The notes below the pieces were generated by a model that was not told the DNA's origin, searched no databases, and saw only the letters and a list, made by a program, of their open reading frames with translations. Below, in pieces: positions 1 to 18,649 of a stretch of DNA of 40,509 nucleotides (its first letter is position 1; every line of letters starts with the position of its first letter). Location: positions 1 through 40,509 of the forward strand of contig NZ_JAMQQF010000014.1 in assembly GCF_023716945.1 (NCBI RefSeq), read 5' to 3'. The DNA comes from Frankia sp. AiPs1 (lineage in GTDB: Bacteria > Actinomycetota > Actinomycetes > Frankiales > Frankiaceae). The translations under genes were made by a program, and so were the position numbers.

Positions 1-410
1 GGGTCGGCGCGAACACGGTCACGTCGGCCGCCGCGCCGACCCGCCGCCAGGCCCGCCGGCGCAGGTCCGACCGCTCACCCTCGTCGTCCTGCTGGTAGAC
101 GACGACGAGGGGCCGGACACCGTCCCACCCCTGGTTCGCGAGGTAGGCGGGCATCTGCGCCGGCGGCAGGTAGGTGAATCCCCCGTCCAGCCGTCCGAGC
201 ACGAACCGGGGCTGTCCGGCCTCGTCCTGGTAGACCTCGAATCCCTCCACCTCGTAGACATCGTCGCGGGCCGCGAGATCCGTGGCATGACGCACCGCGG
301 ACAGGTAGGAGTTCGTGCTGGTCGCGGCCAGCCCGGTGCTCGTACGGACCACCGCGTCGTCGGGACGCAGCCGCGCCCCGCCATCCGCGGTGTCCCATTT
401 GCTCGTGCCC
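1..410 (-). repeat. Module M3 of the giant protein, cut by the window edge
   Basis: The start of a third M copy: [11 protein letters not shown], then [28 protein letters not shown] and [17 protein letters not shown]. The remaining two thirds of the module lie outside the window, so the protein must continue at least some 150 residues further. Confidence 0.65.
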
Positions 411-18400: not shown

Positions 18401-18649
18401 CTGGAGCAGGAGCTTCGGTTCACTGATGACGAACGGCAGAGTCTGGGCGGTGAAACGTCGCCCGGCCTGACCGTGCACGCCGCTCTGGACGGCACGGACG
18501 ATCTTTGTCAGCTCCGGCGACAACGTGTTGAGGACCACGTCGCCCTTGCGGTCCAGGTCGTCGGCCAGGGCCCACATCTTGTTCGGATCGGCGCCGGGTA
18601 GCCGCATTCCGGTGAAGGCGTAGATGGCCTCGTCCAGGGACTTGGACAT
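1..18649 (-). CDS. Giant modular T7SS-linked protein with OTU-like protease domain (3-prime end off window)
   Basis: One open frame runs from ATG 18649 to the window edge with no stop, 6216 codons so far. An excellent ribosome site (GGAGGTG, 18655-18661) lies 5 nt before the ATG. Approximate residue map: 1-300 helical region with hydrophobic stretches, like the WXG100-like/CpnT-type N-terminus of ESX effectors; 300-955 disordered linkers; 959-1030 helical module H1; 1058-1170 OmpA-like module A; 1284-1460 unrecognised domain; 1572-1640 H2; 1855-2155 OTU-like protease; 2250-3760 six repeated beta-rich modules; 3941-4012 H3; 4039-4350 module M1; 4943-5015 H4; 5024-5139 OmpA-like B; 5320-5620 M2; from about 6080 M3, cut by the window. 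Only one cysteine codon was found (Cys1876). Position at the end of a T7SS gene run suggests a secreted effector. Very large actinomycete proteins annotated as lonely-Cys-domain proteins may be relatives; this is from memory. Function is inferred. Confidence 0.9.
1655..1725 (-). repeat. 15-bp tandem repeat, acidic linker
   Basis: Five 15-bp units (CCTCGGCGTCATCGA type) encode D-D-A-E-V/T pentapeptides after module M2. The linker is strongly acidic, unlike the Pro/Ala/Ser linkers elsewhere in the protein. Confidence 0.75.
1790..2690 (-). repeat. Module M2 of the giant protein
   Basis: Second M copy: [87 protein letters not shown] and [11 protein letters not shown]. Roughly half of positions agree with M1. 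It is followed by an acidic repeat (D-A-E-V/T-D units, 1655-1725). Confidence 0.7.
3235..3572 (-). repeat. OmpA-like module B of the giant protein
   Basis: Second copy of the OmpA-like block: [15 protein letters not shown], then [12 protein letters not shown], the RA helix with [10 protein letters not shown], and a final strand ending TRG. More than half of aligned positions look identical to module A by eye, so the pair arose by duplication. If it really is OmpA-like it could bind cell wall; this is inference. Confidence 0.5.
3606..3822 (-). repeat. Helical module H4 of the giant protein
   Basis: Fourth copy: [40 protein letters not shown] and IGRLLGGA. As with H1, it is followed at once by an OmpA-like module and then a basic segment ending in WLTED, so H1-A and H4-B look like one duplicated block. 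Confidence 0.7.
4030..5599 (-). other. Region following M1, unrecognised, alpha/beta in character
   Basis: About 520 residues after M1 with repeated alternation of hydrophobic strands and helices, for example [52 protein letters not shown] and [15 protein letters not shown]. The regular beta-alpha look suggests one or two Rossmann-like or similar domains. No catalytic signature was recognised. It ends in an acidic, proline-rich linker before H4. Confidence 0.45.
5600..6535 (-). repeat. Module M1 of the giant protein
   Basis: About 300 residues beginning [11 protein letters not shown], with [75 protein letters not shown] and [11 protein letters not shown]. The same order is present in M2 (1790-2690), and the start of a third copy lies at 1-410. 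Repeated GRL/LDG-type turns and tryptophans suggest beta-propeller or jelly-roll units; fold not recognised. Confidence 0.7.
6612..6828 (-). repeat. Helical module H3 of the giant protein
   Basis: Third copy, more diverged: [40 protein letters not shown] and GALLGGA. It directly precedes module M1, so H modules sit in front of three different domain types. This suggests they are a general spacer or docking unit. Confidence 0.65.
7370..11905 (-). repeat. Six diverged beta-rich modules in the giant protein
   Basis: Each copy opens with a D-T/V-V/I motif: DTVIGMYPG near 11905, [10 protein letters not shown] near 11215, [10 protein letters not shown] near 10420, [10 protein letters not shown] near 9600, [10 protein letters not shown] near 8890, and [10 protein letters not shown] near 8035. 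A helical stretch follows, then an SM/GM-T/S-R/G-GD-like turn, and then beta-rich sequence with a conserved T-E-F-N-S-G-T/S-E-like site ([32 protein letters not shown] and two weaker forms). Copies are about 230-290 residues. Proline-rich linkers lie before copies 1, 3 and 6. I do not recognise the fold. Confidence 0.75.
12185..13085 (-). other. OTU-like cysteine protease domain inside the giant protein
   Basis: The segment begins with a strand and then [11 protein letters not shown], which fits the OTU catalytic-cysteine signature (D-G-D/N-C-F/L followed by a helix). Cys1876 is codon 13024-13022. It ends with [13 protein letters not shown], matching the OTU C-terminal strand that carries the catalytic histidine; His2151 is codon 12199-12197. 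A preceding strand (IRVLQQGQ) is also typical. The Cys-His spacing of 275 residues is longer than in compact OTU domains and is filled by helical sequence. OTU proteases usually cleave isopeptide bonds of ubiquitin-like proteins; the substrate here is unknown. Confidence 0.7.
13732..13938 (-). repeat. Helical module H2 of the giant protein
   Basis: Second copy of the H module, with [23 protein letters not shown] and [15 protein letters not shown] followed by LGRLRGGA. It precedes a Pro-rich linker and then the OTU-like domain. It is the closest relative of H1 among the four copies by eye. Confidence 0.7.
14270..14800 (-). other. Unrecognised folded domain between OmpA-like A and H2
   Basis: About 175 residues of low-proline sequence stand out between long Pro/Ala linkers. 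Marks are [62 protein letters not shown] and an FGFPVGVN ending. It has the mixed strand/helix look of a globular enzyme or binding domain with conserved-looking W, H and S residues. I do not recognise the family. It occurs only once in the visible protein. Confidence 0.5.
14845..14905 (-). repeat. 18-bp tandem repeat, P-P-A-D-P-A linker
   Basis: Three exact 18-bp units start at 14845, 14863 and 14881, with a partial fourth. They encode PADPAP-type hexapeptides between the first WLTED motif and the unrecognised domain. Confidence 0.8.
15137..15480 (-). repeat. OmpA-like module A of the giant protein
   Basis: Starts [15 protein letters not shown], continues with a helix ([14 protein letters not shown]), a strand [12 protein letters not shown] and a helix with RA..SG...A.SAW, then a final strand. 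The V-x-L-E-G-G-G turn followed by an R-A helix recalls the OmpA C-terminal peptidoglycan-binding fold, but the match is loose. A near-identical block is present at 3235-3572. Confidence 0.5.
15562..15776 (-). repeat. Helical module H1 of the giant protein
   Basis: About 70 residues with the pattern [32 protein letters not shown] and GRL.GGA. It is the first of four copies (others near 13732-13938, 6612-6828 and 3606-3822). It immediately precedes OmpA-like module A, as H4 precedes module B. It reads as a small all-helical unit; function unknown. Confidence 0.7.
15895..15966 (-). repeat. 18-bp tandem repeat, S-P-N-L-T-A linker
   Basis: Four near-identical 18-bp units (GCGGTCAAGTTCGGCGAC type) encode SPNLTA hexapeptides just before H1. 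One unit differs to give SPNLTG. Confidence 0.8.
16368..16487 (-). repeat. 15/21-bp tandem repeat, P-P-V-S linker
   Basis: Units of GCGAGACCGGC with or without GGGCTCT alternate here and encode PPVSQS and PVS repeats. The mix of unit lengths, all multiples of three, keeps the giant frame open. Confidence 0.75.
17051..17113 (-). repeat. 15-bp tandem repeat, P-V-P-A-S linker
   Basis: Four perfect copies of a 15-bp unit (GACGCGGGGACGGGC on plus) start at 17051 and run on into a degenerate copy. They encode a PVPAS pentapeptide repeat. Perfect nucleotide identity suggests recent slippage or expansion, so copy number probably varies between strains. Confidence 0.8.
17470..17545 (-). repeat. Ser-Asp repeat linker
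   Basis: The giant protein carries an S-D-S-D repeat here (residues about 370-393), encoded by repeated TCGGAC/TCCGAG-type units. Such acidic Ser-Asp tracts behave as extended, flexible stalks in surface proteins. It lies in the first long linker after the secretion-type region. Confidence 0.7.
17740..18649 (-). other. N-terminal helical, T7SS-type region of the giant protein
   Basis: Residues 1-300 contain no proline-rich linker and read as helices, with a W in the early segment [11 protein letters not shown]. Hydrophobic stretches include one around [16 protein letters not shown] (about residues 108-124) and others near 205 and 245. This layout matches the N-terminal WXG100-like/CpnT-type region found on large actinobacterial T7SS effectors, where it is thought to direct secretion. 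Assignment rests on pattern and context, not on a database search. The region ends in a Gly/Asp-rich stretch that opens into the disordered linker. Confidence 0.6.

Follow-up and report, generated by a model that had tools for sequence, protein, structure and literature searches.

How does a bacterium use, and move out of the cell, a protein of more than six thousand residues? The question is raised by Frankia sp. AiPs1, in which one giant reading frame follows the genes of a type VII secretion system (T7SS) of the ESX type. The window analysed here is the entire contig C259 (NZ_JAMQQF010000014.1; 40,509 bases) of the draft genome of this strain (7.35 Mb, 1,203 contigs), and the giant frame fills one end of it. 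A preliminary description, made from the letters alone, had proposed a giant T7SS-exported effector or cell-surface protein. The frame has an uninterrupted ortholog in another Frankia genome, carries conserved Cys and His boxes, is nearly devoid of cysteine and ends a locus whose gene order is common to Streptomyces. We favor, at somewhat better than even confidence, the reading that it encodes an ESX-exported multi-effector protein.

An uninterrupted frame at the contig edge

The gene and its ribosome binding site are located as follows.

2-18649, minus strand: giant open frame, 6216 codons from ATG, 3' end open past the contig edge (frame listing, translation, G001 ortholog)
18654-18661, minus strand: Shine-Dalgarno sequence GGAGGTGA, 4 bases 5' of the giant-gene ATG

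Translation of 2-18649 yields 6,216 amino acids without a stop, up to the contig end at coordinate 1, so that the single frame of at least 6216 codons behind a strong ribosome site, as first described, stands. Positions 1-18649 contain no Ns, and the other five frames across them hold 18 to 126 stops each versus 0 in the giant frame. The guanine plus cytosine (GC) content by codon position 1/2/3 is 0.73/0.55/0.85 overall; in 500-codon steps position 2 is the lowest every time and position 3 stays within 0.75-0.92.

An ortholog is carried by a Frankia relative, G001, whose genome is a single contig of 7,497,934 bases. It is an uninterrupted frame of 7,094 codons (7,085 from ATG), of which the first 3,780 residues are collinear with the window frame; beyond this point the two are related via repeats. 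Five segments were tried for the ratio of nonsynonymous to synonymous substitution (dN/dS) between the window and G001, and four gave values of 0.42 (X), 0.57 (OTU1), 0.33 (D0-1) and 0.35 (D2-5), while the fifth (N) yielded no single alignment and no value.

The frame might still be an artefact, either a chance frame in high-GC DNA or a mis-assembly, since high GC lengthens chance frames and the contig edge lies inside a repeated module. We regard this as very nearly negligible: the absence of stops and the dN/dS values of 0.33-0.57 speak against it, and the 7,085-residue ortholog in a single-contig genome refutes it. An assembly join within 1-18649, a danger that the preliminary description had raised, is disfavored because G001 holds the gene as one frame on one contig and because of the dN/dS values in four of five segments.

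Modules and cysteine content of the giant protein

The protein resolves into an N-terminal domain, a linker, several families of repeats and two modules of other kinds.

17660-18649, minus strand: N-terminal T7SS-type domain, residues 1-330 (WXG100_2 at 17-148; N module match 1-295)
15800-17659, minus strand: Asp/Pro-rich low-complexity linker, residues 331-950 (from composition)
15602-15790, minus strand: A repeat 1, residues 954-1016
13769-13957, 6650-6838 and 3638-3826, minus strand: further A repeats, starting at residues 1565, 3938 and 4942
15125-15484, minus strand: B repeat 1, residues 1056-1175
3215-3574, minus strand: B repeat 2, from residue 5026
14159-14824, minus strand: XopV-like module, residues 1276-1497, motif NDKSGRYMS
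12155-13102, minus strand: OTU1, probable OTU-like cysteine peptidase domain, residues 1850-2165
13022-13024, minus strand: C1876, predicted OTU nucleophile, sole cysteine codon of the frame
12197-12199, minus strand: H2151, predicted OTU catalytic histidine, in NHYLGL
7370-11956, minus strand: six D repeats of about 230-250 residues each, residues 2232-3760
5660-6538, minus strand: C module 1, residues 4038-4330
1763-2668, minus strand: C2, from residue 5328
2-364, minus strand: C3, from residue 6096, cut by the contig end
3971-5653, minus strand: F module, residues 4333-4893
374-1438, minus strand: E module, residues 5738-6092

The mixture of repeats with a protease domain noted earlier corresponds to the A to F repeats and to an OTU-like Cys/His signature. 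The reported lack of synthase domains likewise agrees with our scans, in which neither Pfam nor NCBIfam matched such a domain in two half-length pieces or in 10 of 16 short pieces of the protein; the half-length pieces gave no Pfam matches and short pieces were needed. The D repeats and C modules found only insignificant, mutually unrelated matches in PDB and Pfam. A resemblance of C, F and E to degenerate caspase-like repeats was at most an impression, and we set it aside. A second Frankia architecture is seen at locus L092 (contig C96 of G002), a 4,620-residue frame with A, X, C, F and E modules and zero cysteines.

Two more domains of the OTU1 kind, OTU2 and OTU3, lie on contig C269 of the same genome (see below), and from their signatures all three are probably OTU-like cysteine peptidases. 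The OTU1 boxes are GDGDC1876 and NH2151YLGL, whose Cys and His are present in all four orthologs, and those of OTU2/OTU3 are GDGRCYF/NGLCYF and DHHQA/DHYQA, kept in 3/3 aligned domains. The OTU1 profile aligns with the OTU2/3 profile at an hhalign probability of 91.9. In PDB, the OTU2/3 profile found seven sequences at E up to 10 (E 0.63-1.5), each of them named as a viral L protein, an RNA polymerase or a ubiquitin thioesterase, and in both alignments shown the Cys box and the His box follow in order; the top two of seven matches to OTU1 were L-protein chains (E 0.098 and 0.17). We take these L-protein chains to be viral OTU domains, the name ubiquitin thioesterase coming from the matches themselves. 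The likeness to the viral OTU deubiquitinases consists in a Cys box (DGDCF/NGLCYF here) and a His box in the same order, whereas the long insert of Frankia OTU1 sets it apart.

The module at residues 1276-1497 matches the NCBIfam XopV/AopV model NF041375 at E 1.6e-4 over profile positions 166-231 only, and of the eight members of the module alignment, five reach E 1 or better (best 9.9e-6). The likeness centers on NDKSGRYMS, the conserved core of AopV being given as NDSGRFSEY in the part of PMC9570411 available to us. Unlike the XopV/AopV type III effectors, the Frankia module is embedded in a T7SS-linked giant and scores far under the family cut-off. XopV suppresses peptidoglycan-triggered activation of mitogen-activated protein kinases in rice cells, according to the available part of PMC6315156. 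Of 396 genomes sampled across the phylum, 3 (that of the window among them) have the module, and in each the frame around it is 6,225 residues long or longer; a scan of viral contigs found no relative of it. In the products of two Streptomyces plasmid genes no more than about 110 residues separate it from the C-terminus, which is not so in the giant of Streptomyces NBC_01176. A PDB search with its profile listed 18 sequences (with names such as Cake, Bagel, Scone and cell surface protein), which we judged to be chance matches because 17 of them came via one stretch of 14 to 21 positions.

Cysteine is depleted throughout. The 6,216 residues contain one (C1876) versus 68.8 predicted from position-wise composition, while the same model expects 61.6 Trp and 72.8 Tyr and the frame has 86 and 73. 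By comparison, there are 24 Cys among the 4,558 residues of ten other window genes, a difference from the giant with Fisher p 1.6e-8. Across nine Frankia frames, several of them partial, the 30,936 residues include nine Cys: OTU Cys boxes account for five and the motif ADC(M/I)VRLV for four, with zero in two partial frames; six further frames from G002, G004 and G011 (16,857 residues) have four, all in OTU boxes, and two of these frames have zero. This amounts to 13 Cys in 47,793 residues of 15 Frankia frames (9 in OTU boxes, 4 in ADC(M/I)VRLV), a count that leaves out a 714-residue N-terminal piece of G004. ADC(M/I)VRLV is the single-Cys motif of those Frankia giants that, in the parts seen, have no OTU match, and one might guess that its Cys is catalytic. 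In one of them, the G008 giant (locus L026), the motif Cys is at frame residue 976, i.e. 926 from the start of the N-domain, and a weak Pfam match to Gln_amidase (papain fold toxin 1; E 0.13) lies downstream of it. The NCBI name 'lonely Cys domain' is used for a domain in giant Streptomyces proteins. The cysteine pattern offers a rare internal clue to catalysis, as Cys is kept almost solely in OTU boxes or one other conserved motif.

The ESX locus and the extent of the gene

Upstream of the giant gene, the window contains the following genes.

18742-19080, minus strand: 112-residue protein directly upstream of the giant gene, a possible partner
19077-19532, minus strand: YbaB/EbfC-like protein
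19556-22693, minus strand: 1045-residue WXG100/repeat protein, corresponding in position to the Streptomyces AAWKG protein
22696-23160, minus strand: 154-residue protein in the position of a Streptomyces T7SS-associated protein, without clear sequence similarity
23309-23605, minus strand: WXG100-like protein, C-terminal YVLGD
23672-23986, minus strand: WXG100 protein, WxG at 45
24088-25584, minus strand: EccB
25487-26959, minus strand: EccD
27059-31063, plus strand: EccC, three FtsK/SpoIIIE stretches, divergent, start codon picked by eye

EccB, EccC, EccD and the WXG pair are thus all in the window, and the giant gene does follow T7SS genes on its own strand, namely those for EccD, EccB and two WXG100 proteins, as had been described. 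The WXG100 pair carries one WxG and one YxxxD/E-type signal. In the 1045-residue neighbor, LNNGLN/LNDGLN-type repeats follow one another over a long stretch, and this protein may be secreted as an ESX protein in its own right. At the N-terminus of the giant, Pfam WXG100_2 (PF25547) scores 28.0 bits versus a cut-off of 27, in keeping with the T7SS-effector type assigned to it earlier. This family presumably links to CpnT-type proteins, which share with the giant the N-terminal WXG100_2 domain and ESX neighbors; the Frankia frame differs in being far longer, and no CpnT-like C-terminal toxin was recognized in it. The N-domain profile found no chain in PDB, and among plasmids neither the N-domain nor C plus F had a match.

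The giant and this locus occur together. By tblastn, close relatives of the N-domain in named genomes were in Frankia at five of five loci, and the domain is present in 9 of 13 Frankia genomes. All nine carriers have the EccB of this ESX locus (48-100% identity, counting one 54-residue fragment at a contig edge and one split gene), whereas of the four non-carriers two have no EccB match and two a match of 27-33%. Giant and EccB share a contig in six of the nine, on the same strand in all six. The split EccB (G007:C236:29751-31215) consists of a piece with an internal TGA and a second piece, for which locus decay or sequencing error may account. OTU1 and the D repeats are found in the same four of the 13 genomes and the C module in five. 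Beyond Frankia, OTU1 gave one weak match in 396 genomes besides that of the window, the C module three weak matches, and OTU2/3 two good matches in 376 genomes, both in giant frames, and one weak match.

The gene order EccD-EccB-WXG-WXG-x-AAWKG-YbaB-x-giant is common to the Frankia locus and Streptomyces. In Streptomyces NBC_01176 it ends in a plasmid-encoded giant of 19,673 residues (WP_331728273.1, annotated hypothetical), which resembles that of Frankia in the order EccC / EccD-EccB-WXG-WXG-x-AAWKG-YbaB-x-giant, in a XopV-like module and in being cysteine-poor (3 in 19,673). The two loci differ in that phmmer similarity is clear only for EccD, EccB and YbaB, the N-terminal domains are not alignable by simple scoring, the XopV-like module is non-terminal and no D, C, F, E or OTU match appears in the 7,684-residue part scanned. 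This giant gene itself spans 59 kb of the plasmid (NZ_CP108601.1:313719-372740). Streptomyces G140 has the same order from EccD onward, with a frame of 6,338 residues. On another Streptomyces plasmid (L032:4366-27630) two giant genes of 3,792 and 2,888 codons, including the stop, lie between transposases; one is annotated amidoligase, and the first ends in two XopV-like copies.

Where does the Frankia gene end? The C module has six matches in the genome of the window, confined to C259 and C269. Contig C269 (11,838 bases) carries a 3,716-residue frame with an open 5' edge. The window frame breaks off at C-module position 120 and C269 starts at position 130 of the same module, the two contig ends sharing no end sequence (1 base), and a small gene start past the C269 stop looks, by eye, like the 475-residue gene that follows the G001 giant. 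From the abutting module positions, the confinement of the C module and this downstream gene start, we infer that the two contigs very probably hold parts of a single gene, about 9,930 residues in all. Its parts have masses of 656.7 kDa (window) and 393.1 kDa (C269), ~1.05 MDa together. The stop and C-terminal domain to be looked for beyond coordinate 1 would then be those of C269, which does have a stop and a C module near its end.

The module order on C269 is C-F-OTU2-E-C-F-OTU3-E-C, and its two C-F-OTU-E units, each of about 1,700 residues, are 47% identical. G001 has one such unit where C269 has two, and lacks a counterpart of the extra C-F at window residues 4038-4893; the difference between about 9,930 and 7,085 residues would therefore be largely one of repeat number. 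In G011 the frames (1,380, 3,126, 2,091 and 2,850 residues, the last with a stop) are split by contig edges and, if they are one gene, give a similar total length. In G001 (L024:7487-12557) the giant is followed by the 475-residue protein, of unknown family, and by one of 1205 residues that combines two AAA modules with a right-handed beta helix and is possibly EccA-like.

Proposed export and function, and competing explanations

Our proposal is that the giant is a substrate of its own ESX locus, its N-terminal helical WXG100_2-type domain handing the chain to EccC, probably with the help of the small proteins encoded just upstream. The very long chain would be exported unfolded, and the cysteine count suggests that thiols were purged so that no cross-linking occurs outside the cell. 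There, the OTU-like domains (one in the window, two on C269) and the XopV-like module would be the payloads, with the D, C, F and E repeats as scaffold or delivery parts. OTU chemistry and the likeness to XopV point to a eukaryotic cell as the most likely target, be it the host plant or soil protists and fungi, where OTU domains would remove ubiquitin. Of the effector or surface protein first proposed, the T7SS link is well supported by WXG100_2, co-occurrence and the Streptomyces gene order; export itself is a prediction.

Several observations weigh against this proposal. WXG100_2 was matched in only five of nine Frankia members at E<=0.1, the export signals WxG and YxxxD/E are absent from residues 1-330, and a mycosin-like Ser motif was not found in the window or in loci L022-L025. 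Pfam finds no OTU domain in four OTU1 orthologs or three OTU2/3 pieces, the PDB E-values of OTU1 and OTU2/3 are individually insignificant, and the confidence of the two AlphaFold models is low (pLDDT 41.0 and 46.9). The XopV score of 21.4 bits is so far under the curated cut-off of 220 that by this rule the module lies outside the family. XopV-like and OTU modules also occur in Streptomyces, and a plant target is therefore not required. Finally, the strict cysteine rule is not kept by Streptomyces giants (10 in 5,860 residues in G140); because several of these ten, and two of the three in the NBC_01176 giant, sit outside recognized boxes, we rejected it as a universal rule. Separately, one subtilase Ser pattern match in L026 was taken as chance because stops lie beside it in that reading.

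Alternatively, the OTU-like domains could be processing peptidases with which the exported chain cuts itself, the released repeat units doing the work. In MARTX toxins an autoprocessing domain cuts its own chain. In the available part of Zhang et al. 2012 (PMC3482391), processing is proposed as one of the roles that OTU domains may have in the toxins of actinobacteria, and the C-terminal half on C269 has one OTU-like domain per C-F-OTU-E unit of about 1,700 residues. However, OTU1 lies outside this unit, and other Frankia giants have a different single-Cys motif and no OTU match; we think this explanation rather unlikely, if still deserving of attention. The large repeat content, the Asp/Pro-rich linkers and the differing number of C-terminal units in the window's genome and G001 would suit an adhesin at the cell surface or a structural giant whose peptidase domains play a minor part. 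We consider this improbable, since LPxTG/A is absent from C269 and from the region near the G001 C-terminus (one internal match each in the window and G001), hydrophobic 19-residue stretches are few and mostly marginal except at residues 109-130, and the remaining cysteines sit in catalytic-type boxes.

An antibacterial polymorphic toxin directed at rival bacteria appears more improbable still. The same class of giant ESX-linked protein does occur in Streptomyces, but what lies close to the C-terminus in C269, in G001 and in one G011 frame is a C module, not a variable toxin tip (the C-termini of other Frankia strains being seen only in part), no small immunity-like gene was recognized after the G001 giant, where the 475-residue and beta-helix/AAA proteins follow, and ubiquitin-type targets are eukaryotic.

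An ESX-exported multi-effector protein, the reading we favor, would not be without precedent. As far as the available part of Zhang et al. 2012 (PMC3482391) goes, actinobacterial proteins of >10,000 residues with OTU, caspase-like and MCF1-SHE domains are known, as are OTU toxins with N-terminal WXG domains and T7SS delivery. The Frankia giant falls in this class as described there, being actinobacterial, several thousand residues long and equipped with more than one toxin/peptidase-type domain, OTU among them, so that the kind of protein is already known. It differs from the giants in that part of the paper in combining XopV-like with OTU-like modules, in D/C/F/E repeats found mainly in Frankia, in its near-total loss of cysteine and in belonging to a nitrogen-fixing symbiont. 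Our literature search, over sources available in part, found no account of the Frankia giant, of its pattern of cysteines or of a locus of this type, and no report of a Frankia T7SS effector.

A broader hypothesis, which we put forward tentatively and think unlikely to hold in full, is that a dedicated ESX locus type (EccC / EccD-EccB-WXG-WXG-x-AAWKG-YbaB-x) exports effector trains of 1 to 2 MDa with only catalytic thiols left, and that through it Frankia supplies its plant host with OTU deubiquitinases and an immune suppressor of XopV-like type. If true, such a locus would be the functional counterpart, in this nitrogen-fixing mutualist, of rhizobial type III effectors. Since Streptomyces has this locus too, one may ask by what means a T7SS could pass chains 10,000 to 20,000 residues long. 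To our knowledge, the way in which Frankia handles plant immunity is poorly understood, and the giant, with its T7SS link and its OTU-like and XopV-like modules, is a concrete candidate for a part in it.

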